Positions 899 to 31,612 of a DNA stretch of 35,372 nucleotides are shown piece after piece; position 1 is the stretch's first letter; the number at the start of each line of letters is the position of its first letter. Source of the DNA: Candidatus Zipacnadia bacterium. GTDB lineage: Bacteria; Armatimonadota; Zipacnadia; Zipacnadales; Zipacnadaceae. The notes under the pieces were generated by a model that was not told the origin of the DNA, ran no database searches, and was given only the letters and a program-made list of their open reading frames with translations. Made by a program: the position numbers and the translations under genes. The stretch spans positions 1-35,372 of the forward strand of contig JALGTI010000001.1 of NCBI GenBank assembly GCA_029821455.1, given 5' to 3'.

Positions 899-3257
899 GG
901 GCGATAGTGAGGGTCACGGCCCGGGCCTGTACATCGAAGCGGAGGCGGGAGCTAGGGGCCTCGAATGTCTTCTCTTCGCGACTGCCGTCGGGCCACTGGA
1001 ATGTCACCTGATGTCGGCTGCCGGGCGTCACCTCATAATCACCATTCCTGATCGCCAGCCGCGTCTGGGTACGCTTGCCAGACGAGAGGGTAAGCCGGCC
1101 ATCGCGGCTAGTCTGCAGTCTGGTATCTGTGCCGGCTAGCTGCAGCACAATCGCGTTCTCGTCATACTGCTCGACGATAGCGGTGACCTCGCCGGCATAC
1201 GGTTGCACGAGCAGTGGAATGGCGCGAAGGGTACGCAACTCGCCGGATCCAAGCGGCACCGTCAGGCGCGCATAGCCGGTGCGCAGGCCATTATCGTAAC
1301 GGGAGCCAGCGGAGAACTTGGCAATAGCCCCCAGGTAGGCTCGGTGCTTGGCTGTGTAGCTGAGTACCTCGGCGATAGTGTCGGAGCCACTGTTATATAG
1401 CCGGAATTCATCTCCACCCAGGCCGGCGATATGGACCTGGTCAGGAAACAGGGGCGGCCCAATCAATTGATACATGGCACGGCGGGAGCACAGGTCACGA
1501 TGGAACGCGATGTAGGACGGGTCATTCACGCTCCAGTTGCTCCACAGGGGGTAGGTGGCAAAGACTGTCGCCCCCAGCCCACGGGTGCGTACTAAGATCC
1601 CAGCCCAAGCGGGGCTCCCCTCCTCATCGCGCTCCACATCCAGAACCGCCAGCGGTATGGTGTCTTCGGCGATCAATGCGTGCGCGGCGGGGCCGACTAC
1701 CGTCCACTGGCCACCGGCCACACTCGTGCCCCCGCGTTTCCCCATCTCGGTGAAGCCTTTGGTATCCATCCCCGGGCGCAGTGATGGGAACAGCGGCGGA
1801 ATGCAGTTAACCTTCAGATTCCCCACGCGATCCTTGATGCTGACAATCCCCTCCACACCACACCAGGCGCCCAGAGGGTGGGGCAGCTTGTCCCACTGGC
1901 CGGAGTTATACATCCCCGCGCCCAGGTCGCAGACAAACACTCCGCCGCGCTCGATGTAACCTTCGATAGCTGTTACGGCCTCGGGGGTAAGCTTCAGGGC
2001 TAAGGGTCCAAAGATGACCCCATACCGGTCCAGGTCCACGTCAGCCACTTCATTAAGCTGGAGTATATCCACCCCACCGAAGACGGTGCCGAGCCTGAAG
2101 GCGCCGAAGAGGTTGTTCGGCTCGCCGTCAGAGAGGCCCTGGATGAAGCCATAGGCGGGCACTTTCTCTTGCCCTGCCGCAAAGCCCTGGGCGTAGGGCT
2201 CCCAGAGGATTGCGATGGTACCAGCAGGCTCGATACCAAAGTCGGTCGGCTGCACAGCGGCGAGGGTGTCGTGCAGTTGACTGCGGACCTCCGCAGGCGA
2301 GCGGTTCTCCTCGATACGCTCGGCATCCTCGATGCCAAAGCCACAAGCACCACCCAGAGCGGCAACCCCGATCCAGCGGCCCAACGCATTCTCTGAAAAC
2401 AGCGGGCTGGGTGGAACCGGCAGGCGCAAGACGGGCAGGACCCGGAACTTGCCCATGCGGCGGCCCATGTGCAGGGCGTGCACATTGCTGGCGGTAGTGT
2501 CAGGCTCCAGGATATCCGGCGGCATCCAGACCTGGATGATGTCGTAGTCGTCGGGGATAGCACTGAGACTGCGGTAGAGGCTGATGCGCCCGGTCATCAG
2601 AGGGCGGGTAGGGTCCGCCTCCCGAATGACATCGGCCCAGAGCGCCATAAGATCGTGGAACTCCTGGCGCTGGAAGTCAGCGAAGTCAATTGAGGGCCGG
2701 CCCACCGCGAAGGGCATCTCATCATCCGCGCTCAAGGCGCCGACGATGCCTATCTGCGACCAGGTGAGGTACTCCGTCCCCCAGGCCGCGTTCAGTGTCG
2801 CCAGGTCTCGATAAATGGTCTTCAGGTATTGCTGGAAGCCAGCGGCCGAATAGCGGATGTCGCCCTCCAGGAAGTCAGAGGTCGCCCAGGCGGTGATACC
2901 CTCCTCGGAGGCCAGCTCGCCAACCGTCTCCCGTAGCAGCGTCCTGACACGATCTACGTATGACTGATCGCCCGTTGACAGGCCTAACTCGCTGTCTACG
3001 CTCGTCGGCAGGGCCACAATTGACTGCAGCCCGGCTTGGTGGGCGTTGCGGACCGCGACTTTGATGGGACCAAGTCTATCAACCTGCTCAGGATCAATGG
3101 TGAGGTAGATCGTGTTGAGGCCCAGCCAGCGCGCGTCATCGACCATCCGCGGCCCACTGAGGCCCAACAGGTAAGTGAAAAACAGGCCGTCGCTGTCAGC
3201 CGGACCGCCCGCAGCGCATAAGAGGCTTAGGAGAATGATGGCTGCGCTTCGCTTCAT
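888..3257 (-). CDS. Secreted GH42-like (beta-galactosidase-like) TIM-barrel protein, possibly catalytically degenerate
   Basis: 789 aa; signal peptide MKRSAAIILLSLLCAAGGPADS; GH42-like 'LNAAWGTEYLTWSQI' and a later 'AIEGYIERGGVFVCDLGAGMYN' amidotransferase/trimerisation-like segment. Confidence 0.65.
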   Translation of the reverse strand: MKRSAAIILLSLLCAAGGPADSDGLFFTYLLGLSGPRMVDDARWLGLNTIYLTIDPEQVDRLGPIKVAVRNAHQAGLQSIVALPTSVDSELGLSTGDQSYVDRVRTLLRETVGELASEEGITAWATSDFLEGDIRYSAAGFQQYLKTIYRDLATLNAAWGTEYLTWSQIGIVGALSADDEMPFAVGRPSIDFADFQRQEFHDLMALWADVIREADPTRPLMTGRISLYRSLSAIPDDYDIIQVWMPPDILEPDTTASNVHALHMGRRMGKFRVLPVLRLPVPPSPLFSENALGRWIGVAALGGACGFGIEDAERIEENRSPAEVRSQLHDTLAAVQPTDFGIEPAGTIAILWEPYAQGFAAGQEKVPAYGFIQGLSDGEPNNLFGAFRLGTVFGGVDILQLNEVADVDLDRYGVIFGPLALKLTPEAVTAIEGYIERGGVFVCDLGAGMYNSGQWDKLPHPLGAWCGVEGIVSIKDRVGNLKVNCIPPLFPSLRPGMDTKGFTEMGKRGGTSVAGGQWTVVGPAAHALIAEDTIPLAVLDVERDEEGSPAWAGILVRTRGLGATVFATYPLWSNWSVNDPSYIAFHRDLCSRRAMYQLIGPPLFPDQVHIAGLGGDEFRLYNSGSDTIAEVLSYTAKHRAYLGAIAKFSAGSRYDNGLRTGYARLTVPLGSGELRTLRAIPLLVQPYAGEVTAIVEQYDENAIVLQLAGTDTRLQTSRDGRLTLSSGKRTQTRLAIRNGDYEVTPGSRHQVTFQWPDGSREEKTFEAPSSRLRFDVQARAVTLTIAPSP

Positions 3258-3274
3258 GCCGCCCGTCTCTTCGG

Positions 3275-4015
3275 CTAGATAGTGTCCGTTGAGTGGTTAT
3301 TCACAACCGTCGCCAGCCAGACCTCCTTGGTGGATAGAGCATCGCCGGCCGCGGCTTGCTGAGCTTGCTGCTTGCTGGCACCGTTGCCTTGGCCGATCAC
3401 CCGTCCTCGGAAGCGCACCTCCACCTCGAAAGTCCGATCGTGAGGTGGCCCCATCACAGCAACGGTCACATAGCGAGGAATCTGCTTGGTCTGCTTCTGC
3501 AGCAGCTCCTGGAGCACGGTCTTATGGTCGAAGACAAGCTCCTGCGCCTCGATATTTGCCAGAATATCACGAAACAGTCGCATTACCAGGGCACGGGCGG
3601 TTCGCATCCCCTTGGCCAGATACGCAGCCCCGATGACAGCTTCCACGCAATCGGCCAGCAGTGAGGTTTTCTGTCGGCCACCAGTCTCTTCCTCGCCGTG
3701 ACCCAGCAGCAAGTAGTCACCAAAGCCCCGCTGCCGGGCAACCCTGGCAAGAGTGGTCGAACGCGCCACCACCGACTTCATCCTGGTCAACTGCCCCTCG
3801 GGTAAGCCGGGAAACTTCTTGTATAGGTGCTCCGCCAAGCATAAGTCCAACACCGTGTCACCCAGGAATTCCAGGCGCTGGTTGGACTCCACGGAGGGCA
3901 AGCCCTGTTCGCGCACCCACGAGGTATGACAGAACGCCTGCCGCAACAGGTCAAGATCCATCTTGGGCAGGCGTAGTTGTTCGGCAAGTGCCCTGAAGCG
4001 CTTCTTGTCCTGCAC
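3275..4015 (-). CDS. rnc: Ribonuclease III
   Basis: Signature NQRLEFLGDTVLDL, C-terminal dsRBD; GTG start with GGGAGG Shine-Dalgarno; follows fabF. Confidence 0.95.
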   Translation of the reverse strand: MQDKKRFRALAEQLRLPKMDLDLLRQAFCHTSWVREQGLPSVESNQRLEFLGDTVLDLCLAEHLYKKFPGLPEGQLTRMKSVVARSTTLARVARQRGFGDYLLLGHGEEETGGRQKTSLLADCVEAVIGAAYLAKGMRTARALVMRLFRDILANIEAQELVFDHKTVLQELLQKQTKQIPRYVTVAVMGPPHDRTFEVEVRFRGRVIGQGNGASKQQAQQAAAGDALSTKEVWLATVVNNHSTDTI

Positions 4016-22642: not shown

Positions 22643-23974
22643 TTAGGACAGGAAGCCTCTGTACTGACGCATTAAGAGCTGTGCCTCAATCTGCTGCATC
22701 GTATCCAGCGCCACGCCGACCACGATCAGCAGCGAAGTACCACCCACGAGGTTGAATGTTGACACACCGGTAATGGGGCCAACGTAATACTGCATTATGG
22801 CAATGAAGCCCAGGAACAACGCCCCGGCCAGGGTGATACGATACAGTATCTTGTCAAGGTAATCGCGGGTGCGTTCCCCCGGTCTGATGCCGGGGACCGC
22901 GCCCCCATTCTTCTGCAGATTGTCGGCAATTTGCTCTGGGTTGAACGTTACTGCGGTATAGAAGTACGTGAACAGAATCACCAGGATGAAATACAGGAAC
23001 GATGCAAAATGATTGCCAACCCCAGGGGCTGTGTAGTTTACCAGCGCGTTGACCGCGTTCCTTACTGCGTCTTCGGCGATCCCCAGCCGCGCGACCAGGC
23101 CGATGAAGCCCTCTGAAAGCAAGAGTCTTGCAATAGTTGCCGGGAACATCGAAACAGATATAGCAAAGATAATCGGAATGACCCCGGCCTGGTTAACCCG
23201 CAGCGGCAGGAAGCTGGACTGTCCGCCATAGACCCTCTGGCCTTTGACCCGCTTGGTGTACTGTACCGGTATCTTACGCTCAGCCTGCTGCACCTTGACG
23301 ATGCCATAGATGGTGGCCAGGAAGATGGCAACCAGTAGTGCGATGTTGGCAATGGTTATCTCGCGCCCTTCCCACAACTTGTAGGTTTGTGCCATATCCT
23401 GCGGCATACGAGTCATAATTCCCACGAAGATGATAAGGGAGACGCCCTGGCCGATGCCGCGCTCAGTGATACGATTCCCAATGTACATCAGGAACATCGT
23501 GCCAGAGGTCATCATCAGTATGTCAAAGATCGTGATGAATCTGTCGCCGATAAAAGCGTTCGCCCCACGGAACATTGCAATCATACCGGCTGCCTGCAGC
23601 ACCGCCAGGGCCACTGTCAGATAGCGCGTCCAGGCCTGCAGCTTCTTCTGCCCCCACTCGCCCTCCCTTTGTAGCTGCTCCAGAGAGGGGATCGCCATAA
23701 CCAGGAGCTGGAAGATAATCGAGGCGTTAATGTAGGGCATAATGCCCAGAGCTAGGATCGAGAAGCGCTTGAGCGAGCCGCCCACGAAGACATCCAACAG
23801 GTCCATCAGCCCACCGCCAGCGAAAAAGTTGGCGAGCTGCTCCTTGTCAATGCCTGGCAGCGGGATGTGCGCACAGAACACGTACAGCGCAAACATCGTA
23901 AAGACAAAGAATATGCGCTTGCGCACATCCGGCAGCTTCATCGCCATGGCCAGGTTAGCCAGGCGCTCCTTCAT
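22643..23974 (-). CDS. secY: Preprotein translocase subunit SecY
   Basis: 443 aa polytopic protein; 'HIPLPGID', 'GIMPYINASIIFQLL', 'IGNRITERGIGQGVSLIIF'; 4-bp overlap with rplO. Confidence 0.97.
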   Translation of the reverse strand: MKERLANLAMAMKLPDVRKRIFFVFTMFALYVFCAHIPLPGIDKEQLANFFAGGGLMDLLDVFVGGSLKRFSILALGIMPYINASIIFQLLVMAIPSLEQLQREGEWGQKKLQAWTRYLTVALAVLQAAGMIAMFRGANAFIGDRFITIFDILMMTSGTMFLMYIGNRITERGIGQGVSLIIFVGIMTRMPQDMAQTYKLWEGREITIANIALLVAIFLATIYGIVKVQQAERKIPVQYTKRVKGQRVYGGQSSFLPLRVNQAGVIPIIFAISVSMFPATIARLLLSEGFIGLVARLGIAEDAVRNAVNALVNYTAPGVGNHFASFLYFILVILFTYFYTAVTFNPEQIADNLQKNGGAVPGIRPGERTRDYLDKILYRITLAGALFLGFIAIMQYYVGPITGVSTFNLVGGTSLLIVVGVALDTMQQIEAQLLMRQYRGFLS

Positions 23975-24432
23975 TGCTCAATCACCTCGACGGTGCCACC
24001 GGCTTTCTCGATCTTCTCCCGGGCAGTCGCGCTGAATGCATTCGCCCGGACGGTCAGGGCCCTGCTGAGTTCGCCTTCACCAAGCACCTTCAGTCCGTCG
24101 CGCAGCTTGCTCACCAGGCCAGCCTCCAGCACCGTCTCTGGGCTGACCTCCGCCCCGCTCTCGAGGCGCTCCAGTTGCCCCACATTCACTATAGACATCT
24201 GTTGGCGGAACATCCCAATATTGTGGGCGCGGTTGGAGCGTCCCCGCAAGGCCGGAAGCTGACGATAAATCGGGCTGCCGCCACCCTCAAACCCTACCCG
24301 CACCTTGCTGCGATACTTCTGCCCCTTCTGGCCGCGACCAGCAGTCTTGCCACCCGCCCCCGCTTGGCCGCGGGCGACACGCTTGCGGCGCTTGCGACGC
24401 GCTGGATCAGGCTGTACCTGCGTCAGGTTCAT
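23971..24432 (-). CDS. rplO: 50S ribosomal protein L15
   Basis: 'RKRRKRVARGQAGAGGKTAGRGQKGQKYRSKVRVGFEGGGSPIYRQLPALRG'; good SD (GAGGAG). Confidence 0.96.
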   Translation of the reverse strand: MNLTQVQPDPARRKRRKRVARGQAGAGGKTAGRGQKGQKYRSKVRVGFEGGGSPIYRQLPALRGRSNRAHNIGMFRQQMSIVNVGQLERLESGAEVSPETVLEAGLVSKLRDGLKVLGEGELSRALTVRANAFSATAREKIEKAGGTVEVIEQ

Positions 24433-24470
24433 ACTCTTAACTCCTCAGAAACCACCTAGTACTAGTGTCT

Positions 24471-27551: not shown

Positions 27552-29636
27552 TTACCCTTCGTCTTCAGCTGCCTTGGCTTCTGCTATGATCTTATCAGCC
27601 TGATAGGCGGGCAGTTCTTCGTAGTGTGACAGTTCCATCGTGTAGCTAGCCCGCCCCTGCGAGATGGAGCGCAGGTCAGCAGCGTATGTCCGCATCTCTG
27701 CATACGGTACCAGGGCGGTGATTAGCACCATCCGGCCACCAAGCTGCACCTGGTCCTGCGGGTGACCACGGCGCCCTGACAGGTCACTTATGATGTCGCC
27801 CATGATCTCAGCCGGTGTCGTGATTTCCACTTTCACTATCGGCTCAAGCAGGACGGGAGCTGCCTCCTCCATCGCTTTGCGGATGGCAATTTGGCCCGCC
27901 AGTCGGAACGCAATGTCGGACGAGTCGACCGGATGGGAGCTCCCATCATCCAGGGTCACCCTAACGTCAACCACGGGGTAGCTGGCCAGCGGTCCGGCGG
28001 CCAGGCCATCCTGCAAGCCCTTCTGCACAGCCGCAATGAAGTTCGTAGGCACCGACCCGCCCCTGATCTCGTTGACGAACTCATATCCTGCCGCACGAGG
28101 CAGCGGGTCGAGGCGAATCCAGACATCGCCGAACTGCCCGCGACCGCCGGTCTGCTTCTTATGCCGTCCCTGCACGCGCACCGACTTAGTGGCCGTCTCA
28201 CGGTAGGGAACCTGCGGCTCGGCGAGCGTGACATCCACATCAAACTTAGCCTTGAGCTTGGCAACGATTACCTCAATGTGTAGCGGCCCCATGCCGTGGA
28301 CGACCAGTTCCCCGGTGTCCTGCGAGCGCTCGAAGCTAAAGCCAATGTCCTCTTCAGCCAGCCGTGCCAGCGCCGTGGAGAGCTTGTCCTGGTCGGCGCG
28401 GGTGACGGCCTCCATCGCCACGGCATGCATCCCGACCGGTATGGGCGGCATCTCATAGACAATTAGGCTCTTGGGCTCACAGAGCGTGTCGCCGGTTACC
28501 GTATGTTCCAGCTTGGTGACACAGCCCAGATCCCCGGCTGCCAGTGTTCCGGCAGTCTTCAGGTCCCTGCCCTGGGTCACCGAGAGGCCGCTGAGCTTCT
28601 CGCGCTCGCCACTGGCACCATTCACCACTGTCATATCGGTCTGGGCCATGCCCGAGACGATGCGGATCAGGCTCAGCTTGCCCACATAAGGATCGGTGAG
28701 CGTCTTGAAAACGATTGCGCTGAATGGCTCGGAGCTATCGCAACTGCGTGTGATCTCTGCATCACTGCCCGGGCTCTTACCTGTCCAGGCTGGTGCCTCT
28801 ACCGGGCTGGGGCAAGCGCCGGCCAGGAAGTCCATTATCACCACCGTGCCAATGTTGCGCAGCGCCGAGGCGCACAGCACAGGCATAACACTGCCGGCGG
28901 CAACTCCTGCCTTCAGCCCCGTAATCAGTTCCTCTTCGCTGAGTGTATCGTTCTCAAAGAATTTCTCCATCAGCTCATCATCGCTGGCCGCGACGGCCTC
29001 AATAAGCTGGCCTCGCGCCTCTTTGACCTCATCGGCCATCTCCGCAGACACCTCCGCCACCTGCGGCGATTTGCCATCCCCGCTGATGGCCTTGTTGCTC
29101 AGCAGATCAACGATGCCCGAAAAGGCGCTTTCGACTCCGATGGGCAGATGGATTGGCGCCACTTCAATACCTGCAAGCGCCTCCCGAATGCTGTCGAGGC
29201 TATTCTGGAAGTTTGAATGTTCCCTGTCCAGCCGGTTGATGACACACACAAGCGGCAGGCCCATCTCCCGCGCAGTAGCGAAAACCTTGCGAGTGTGCAC
29301 CTCGACGCCGGCTGCTGCGTCAACCACCAGCAGCGCCGCGTCCACTGCCGCCAGGCACGGCAGCACCTCGGCAAAGAATTCCGCATAGCCGGGCGTATCA
29401 AGAAGGTTCAACTTTATCTTGTCATGGTGGACGTGGGCCAGGGCAGGCGAGATGCTGATCTGGCGCTGTCGCTCTTCTTCGTCAAAGTCAGTGGTAGCCT
29501 GGCCGCTGTCCACGCCCCCCAGCCTGCTAACCTCACCAGCCGTGTTCAGCATCGCCTCCACCAGGGTCGTCTTCCCGCAGCCACGATGACCGATCAAAGC
29601 AATATTCCGTATGTTTTCGCTCTCAAATAACGGCAC
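27552..29636 (-). CDS. Elongation factor G-like GTPase (EF-G2/FusA2-like), inserted between rpsQ and rplN
   Basis: 694 aa; G1 GHRGCGKT, G3 DTPGYAEF, G4-like NRLDRE; domain IV 'GRHKKQTGGRGQFGDVWIRLDPLPRAAGYEFVNEIRGGSVP'; 'DLRSISQGRASYTMELSHYEELP'. Confidence 0.92.
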   Translation of the reverse strand: MPLFESENIRNIALIGHRGCGKTTLVEAMLNTAGEVSRLGGVDSGQATTDFDEEERQRQISISPALAHVHHDKIKLNLLDTPGYAEFFAEVLPCLAAVDAALLVVDAAAGVEVHTRKVFATAREMGLPLVCVINRLDREHSNFQNSLDSIREALAGIEVAPIHLPIGVESAFSGIVDLLSNKAISGDGKSPQVAEVSAEMADEVKEARGQLIEAVAASDDELMEKFFENDTLSEEELITGLKAGVAAGSVMPVLCASALRNIGTVVIMDFLAGACPSPVEAPAWTGKSPGSDAEITRSCDSSEPFSAIVFKTLTDPYVGKLSLIRIVSGMAQTDMTVVNGASGEREKLSGLSVTQGRDLKTAGTLAAGDLGCVTKLEHTVTGDTLCEPKSLIVYEMPPIPVGMHAVAMEAVTRADQDKLSTALARLAEEDIGFSFERSQDTGELVVHGMGPLHIEVIVAKLKAKFDVDVTLAEPQVPYRETATKSVRVQGRHKKQTGGRGQFGDVWIRLDPLPRAAGYEFVNEIRGGSVPTNFIAAVQKGLQDGLAAGPLASYPVVDVRVTLDDGSSHPVDSSDIAFRLAGQIAIRKAMEEAAPVLLEPIVKVEITTPAEIMGDIISDLSGRRGHPQDQVQLGGRMVLITALVPYAEMRTYAADLRSISQGRASYTMELSHYEELPAYQADKIIAEAKAAEDEG

Positions 29637-30635: not shown

Positions 30636-31586
30636 CTACTCCTCCTCGGGCTTAGCCTCGGTATCCTCTTCGGTGTCAAGCACTGCCACGATGGACGCCT
30701 CATCGGCCTCCTGCGGGGCGGCTGTCTCTGGTGCCTCCCCTTGCGCTCCAGTCTCTGCAACAGCTTCCTCTCCTGCTTCTGTGGCCGGTTCTTCGTCAGC
30801 CGTCGCGGTGGCCGGCACTTCCTCAGCCACTTCCACTGTCGGCTGTTCACCAGCTTCTGCGGCCGACACTTCAGCCTCAGCAGTTATCACCTCAGTTGCA
30901 GCCTCCTCTGCCTGCTCTTCCGCTTCAATCTCCTCGACAGCGGGCTCCGGCTGCTTCGGAAGGATATCACCCTTGTATATCCAGACCTTCACACCGATGT
31001 TTCCGTAAGTCGTCTGCGCCTCAGCAAGCCCGTATTCTACATCGGCCCGCAGCGTATGCAACGGCACCCGGCCTTCGGGCCCCACGGCCTCAGTGCGCGC
31101 AATTTCAGCCCCCCCAAGCCGTCCGCTAACCATGGCGCGAATCCCCAGTGCACCAAGCTTCATCGCCCGCTCTACGGCCTGGCGCATTGCGCGCCGATAG
31201 CTGATACGGCGTTCGATCTGCCGGGCGATGTTATCTGCCACCAGTTGCGCATTAGTATCGGGGTCCCGCGCCTCGTCCACATTCACCCGCACCTTGGCAT
31301 CGGTCAACTTCTCTATCTGCTGCCGCAGCCGTTCCACATCCTGCCCGCCACGACCGATCACCATCCCTGGCTTAGCGGTCTCAATGTTCACCGTTACCAC
31401 ATCGCCCATCCGCTCAATCATTACTGCTGATATGCCGGCGTCGCCGTGCTGCTTGGCGATTAGCTGGCGGATCTTGAGGTCCTCAACAAGCTGCTGACGA
31501 TAGCGAGGGCCCTCAGCAAACCAGCGACTGCGTGACTGGCGGATTATGCCCAGACGCAGGCCGTATGGATGAACTTTCTGTCCCAT
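30636..31586 (-). CDS. rpsC: 30S ribosomal protein S3 with ~105-aa acidic C-terminal extension
   Basis: '[26 protein letters not shown]', KH '[14 protein letters not shown]', '[12 protein letters not shown]'; the tail from residue ~215 is Glu/Ala/Thr-rich. Confidence 0.96.
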
Positions 31587-31612
31587 CAACATCACTCCCT
31601 GGCCGCTGGAGG

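Follow-up and report, generated by a model that had tools for sequence, protein, structure and literature searches.

Separation of rpsE from the spc operon in the class Zipacnadia (Armatimonadota) and a candidate leader hairpin of the solo gene

Results

Gene order at the rplR-rplO junction

The window, by which we mean the whole stretch of DNA analysed (35,372 nucleotides), comes from a metagenome-assembled genome (MAG) of the class Zipacnadia (Armatimonadota), which was formerly named UBA5377 (PMC10290634). This MAG consists of 518 contigs and its completeness is 87%. The canonical order of the bacterial spc operon is L14-L24-L5-S14-S8-L6-L18-S5-L30-L15-SecY, and rpsE, which encodes the essential ribosomal protein S5, is almost always inside it. 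Compared with this order, rpsE is gone in the class and rpmD (L30) is also gone in the window's genome, whereas all other genes keep their usual order, as they do in the outgroups of the class. The remaining genes of the S10-spc-alpha cluster in the window are likewise in the usual order, except that an EF-G paralogue is interposed between rpsQ and rplN.

At the junction, rplF (L6; 24910..25461, minus strand) lies upstream of rplR (L18; 24471..24857, minus strand). The L18 protein matches TIGR00060 with 130 bits (cut-off, 88) and its C-terminus is complete (AREAGLEF, then the stop codon). The gene after the gap is rplO (L15; 23971..24432, minus strand; TIGR01071, 124 bits; cut-off, 78), which starts with ATG at 24432 and has its own Shine-Dalgarno (SD) sequence, GAGGAG. 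The operon continues with secY (22643..23974, minus strand); rplF and secY stand in the same order as in relatives. Between rplR and rplO, at the site of rpsE and rpmD in most bacteria, there are 38 bp (24433..24470, minus strand), which are not conserved in relatives and contain the palindrome ctagtactag (24456-24465). The S5 profile (PF00333) had no match within the window, and the L30 profile (PF00327) had none anywhere in the window's genome. The claim of an earlier note that both genes are absent between an intact rplR and an intact rplO is borne out by this spacing and by flanking proteins that score above the curated cut-offs.

Two further features of the cluster should be mentioned. 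The EF-G paralogue (27552-29636, minus strand) belongs to the NF009381 subfamily and scores below the TIGR00484 cut-off for EF-G. Every class genome in which the region was read has it between rpsQ and rplN, as does one genome from outside the class (G100); in other Armatimonadota, for example G047, G050 and G058, it lies between rplE and rpsN. Thus, the paralogue has changed its place within the ribosomal cluster. The S3 protein (30636-31595, minus strand) has a Glu/Ala-rich C-terminal tail of about 100 amino acids.

The genome of the window encodes S5 on another contig

A single intact rpsE is present in the window's genome, where PF00333 has one match genome-wide. The gene runs from a GTG at 2007 to the stop codon at 2681 of contig C47 (1417-2091 of the extracted locus L001; offset, 590) and encodes 224 amino acids. 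The protein scores 185.1 bits against TIGR01021 (curated equivalog cut-off, 164.05), and the gene shares 79.8% identity with its counterpart in a genome of the same genus. A predicted promoter with TTGACA, a spacer of 17 and an extended -10 element (TGGTAGGGT) is located at 1915-1943, a leader hairpin at 1953-1975 and a terminator-like hairpin at 2719-2752. In the class as a whole, S5 proteins have acidic tails of variable length.

We searched 46 class genomes for S5 and found it in 43, in one copy and with conserved core motifs; the search gave no match in three draft genomes. A cell that lives without S5, or that uses a replacement protein, is hardly conceivable: the absence from the operon and the three drafts would fit it, but S5 with its core motifs conserved occurs once in 43 of 46 class genomes, that of the window among them, and the above-cut-off score of the window's own S5 already refutes it for this genome. 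The unusual supply of S5 function that the earlier note had considered is therefore not needed, because an intact gene is present.

Separation of rpsE from rplR throughout the class

The tables of contigs carrying S5 and L18, in and outside the class, were matched up by eye. In the 41 class genomes that have both genes, S5 and L18 always lie on different contigs, so none of these relatives keeps rpsE at the junction. In non-class Armatimonadota with both genes, S5 adjoins L18 on one contig in 110 of 112 genomes. One of the two exceptions (G135) is due to a contig break: S5-L30-L15 lie at the end of one contig and L18-L6 at that of another. In the other (G100), S5-L30-L15-SecY are in order, but an inserted ORF of about 1.6 kb (2089-3600 of locus L192, minus strand), with a start that resembles a signal peptide, separates S5 from a short stretch similar to the end of L18. 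This insertion is an independent break at the rplR-rpsE junction, outside the class. We considered G100 as an intermediate state and rejected it, as the operon proteins group this genome with another non-class genome (G054) and not with the class. Because the genes are separated in 41 of 41 class genomes and adjacent in 110 of 112 others, the move dates to the class ancestor; the gene orders indicate that rpsE left the spc operon once.

The main alternative in the earlier note was an assembly or binning join at the rplR-rplO junction, with rpsE truly in place. Such a join might be suspected in a MAG of 518 contigs and 87% completeness, in which rpsE lies on a contig of only 2.9 kb. However, separation throughout the class is not an artefact of one assembly: 41 class genomes share it. 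In several of them both S5 and L18 are inside contigs of 50-375 kb, and in several rpsE is deep within contigs of 160-375 kb. Moreover, relatives also show rplR directly before rpmD or rplO, at varied distances. We reject a join as very improbable. The other proposal of the earlier note, that rpsE moved away cleanly, agrees with the S5 gene elsewhere in the same genome and with the class-wide separation.

Later loss of rpmD and the origin of the 38-bp gap

In most of the class, L30 adjoins L18 (rplR-rpmD-rplO), so rpsE departed alone and rpmD remained. In the window's family (f1), L30 was undetectable in 12 of 15 genomes, all from genera g1-g3; it is present in genus g4 of this family and in nearly all other class genomes. 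This distribution indicates two separate steps, of which the exit of rpsE in the class ancestor was the first and the loss of rpmD in three genera, including that of the window, came later. The 38-bp gap is the result of the second step.

The earlier note had taken the palindrome as a possible deletion junction. This idea did not survive the comparison. Since rpmD still separated rplR from rplO once rpsE was gone, the palindrome is not the scar of rpsE excision. In addition, the palindrome is not found in the gap of the same-genus genome, and within the family the gap varies freely in sequence and ranges from 15 to 281 bp. Therefore, we regard the palindrome as incidental. The gap shares 13 bases with the start of rpsE in G011, but no other locus compared shows this match, which was taken as chance.

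Descent of the relocated gene

Among 17 operon proteins, S5 shows the largest drop in identity from the class to its outgroups (0.475, compared with 0.581 among the outgroups). In the S5 tree the stem branch of the class is long (0.55-0.7), and S5 trees unite the other Armatimonadota to the exclusion of the class, which stands beside them with weak support. The trees of the operon-mates place the class inside Armatimonadota. AU tests of nested arrangements for S5 rejected one marginally (p 0.039) and did not reject another (p 0.195).

These results bear on the possibility that the solo rpsE is a foreign copy, gained by the class ancestor before the operon copy was lost. The identity drop, the long stem and the disagreement with the operon-mates would all be expected of such a copy. 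However, class S5 still stands, with weak support, beside the S5 of Armatimonadota, no donor was found, one nested placement passed the AU test and long-branch effects could yield the same picture. We think a foreign origin unlikely and favour vertical descent of class S5 with a burst of change.

The solo rpsE resembles a one-gene transcription unit

We compared 42 distinct rpsE loci from the class. No conserved new neighbours of rpsE were found in them: the surroundings of the gene change from family to family and often from genus to genus. Therefore, rpsE joined no other conserved operon. T-box leaders were seen near rpsE in two class genomes (loci L042, 11762-11996, minus strand; L053, 7187-7425, plus strand), without a visible link to rpsE in either.

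A near-consensus sigma-70 promoter with an extended -10 element, TTGACA-17/18-TGnTAnnnT, is predicted upstream of rpsE in 39 of the 42 loci; it was not found at the other three. The strict form of the pattern (TTGAC[ACT], 17 or 18 nucleotides, GnTAnnnT) occurs about once per 18 kb of strand in the DNA around rpsE, the rpsE promoters themselves included. The predicted 5' UTR is about 40-60 nt in most loci and longer in some genera, and an SD sequence precedes the gene. A hairpin resembling an intrinsic terminator lies within 150 nt past the rpsE stop codon in 19 of 42 loci, mostly at 20-50 nt. Thus arranged, the moved rpsE appears to be transcribed on its own.

A stem-loop at the predicted 5' end of the rpsE mRNA

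Directly after the predicted transcript start, and so at the predicted 5' end of the mRNA, there is a stem-loop. A strong hairpin was found in 38 of 39 rpsE leaders. Among the other strict promoters in this DNA the figure is 5 of 19, and the parser may have overlooked an rpsE leader in at least one of these cases. The typical stem, GCCTCCC-loop-GGGAGGC, is kept across several families. The loops are not conserved, and the stems vary between lineages, among them the window's genus and family f5: the stem is GCCCCCG/CGGGGGC in family f5 and GGCTTCC/GGAAGCC in genus g6.

Because MAFFT misaligns hairpins with short loops, covariation was analysed on a well-aligned subset of 14 leaders. In this alignment, pairing holds in 99% of stem cells, with a covariation score of 0.275 (shuffled mean, 0.194; 4 of 500 shuffles scored as high). 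In a structure-guided count over 30 leaders, three of the seven pairs have compensatory types (C-G/U-A, U-A/C-G and C-G/U-A/G-C). Covariation thus gives modest support to the predicted hairpin, which is one short stem of seven pairs.

Eleven whole genomes were searched with a covariance model built from the hairpin plus the bases that follow it. The rpsE leader was the top genome-wide match in six (G002, G016, G019, G021, G024 and G026) and was matched, not in first place, in G004 and G008; the model does not detect the divergent stems found in the window's own genus and in family f5. We inspected 20 other matches, and none had such a promoter in front. Therefore, the combination of promoter and 5' hairpin appears to be specific to rpsE. 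A search with Rfam gave no match at the rpsE leader and, elsewhere in the loci, only T-boxes and one tRNA. We also considered an anti-SD switch, in which the 5' arm (CCUCCC) would pair with the SD sequence. It fits some leaders of family f1 but was not adopted for the lineage, because family f5, with the arm GCCCCCG and the SD sequence GAAGGG, does not fit.

Discussion

The sequences show that, in the class ancestor, rpsE left the site between rplR and rpmD for a distant one. The spc operon closed up to rplR-rpmD-rplO, and rpmD was later dropped in some genera of the window's family. The solo unit appears to consist of a promoter, a short 5' UTR that opens with a stem-loop, an SD sequence, rpsE and, often, an intrinsic terminator. 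In E. coli, the spc transcript, which S8 controls, is the normal source of S5. Because rpsE of the class no longer shares that transcript, we infer that the promoter and the 5' hairpin may restore a matched output. The escaped gene would have required a tuning of its own, probably exerted at the hairpin. Judged from gene order and leader sequences, this explanation as a whole, from relocation in the class ancestor to the restored output, is in our opinion highly probable.

How the hairpin would act is a separate question. A ribosomal leader binds a ribosomal protein, which thereby reduces expression, and some leaders resemble the rRNA site of that protein. A structured RNA is consistently present in the rpsE 5' UTR (38/39) and has covariation support, so that the hairpin is a candidate ribosomal-protein leader. 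It may shield the 5' end of the mRNA, or it may be bound as a feedback leader by excess S5 or another ribosomal protein. We put at about even chances the explanation that the relocation is real and the hairpin is a general mRNA stabiliser only, which binds no ribosomal protein. Its position at the very 5' end, the unconserved loops and the differing stems speak for this. Against it, several families preserve the GCCTCCC/GGGAGGC stem, with compensatory changes, and the promoter-hairpin pair was found nowhere but at rpsE. A feedback leader bound by S5 itself, which would have evolved after rpsE escaped the shared control of the spc operon, is a tentative proposal that we hold somewhat doubtful. 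If it is true, S5 would be a leader ligand that has not been described before.

The exit of cluster genes from the spc operon is already known for other genes: rpmJ, rpsN and secY occur singly outside an otherwise kept spc operon, as does secY of Bacillus selenitireducens (PMC8046335). These examples are limited to individual species or to genes that also have a second copy, and the paper does not mention rpsE. In contrast, rpsE of Zipacnadia is an essential single-copy gene, it is separated in every class member examined and it has a shared new promoter and hairpin. The closest likeness for the hairpin is the single-hairpin L31 leader, which is also a conserved 5' UTR hairpin with covariation at a lone ribosomal-protein gene (PMC7247131); the rpsE hairpin is a candidate leader. 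The table of new leaders in that paper contains no S5 leader, and its main text mentions neither rpsE nor Armatimonadota. The conserved control region of a solo rpsE has apparently not been described before.

One practical consequence is that operon-based searches will report S5 as missing in this class. Few gene orders in bacteria are as well conserved as that of the S10-spc-alpha cluster, whose members are believed to be kept together by joint transcription and feedback. In some 40 descendants of the class ancestor, rpsE stands by itself at sites that differ, and its promoter and hairpin are conserved. The class is thus a natural experiment on what holds ribosomal operons together and on how balance returns after one of them is broken.
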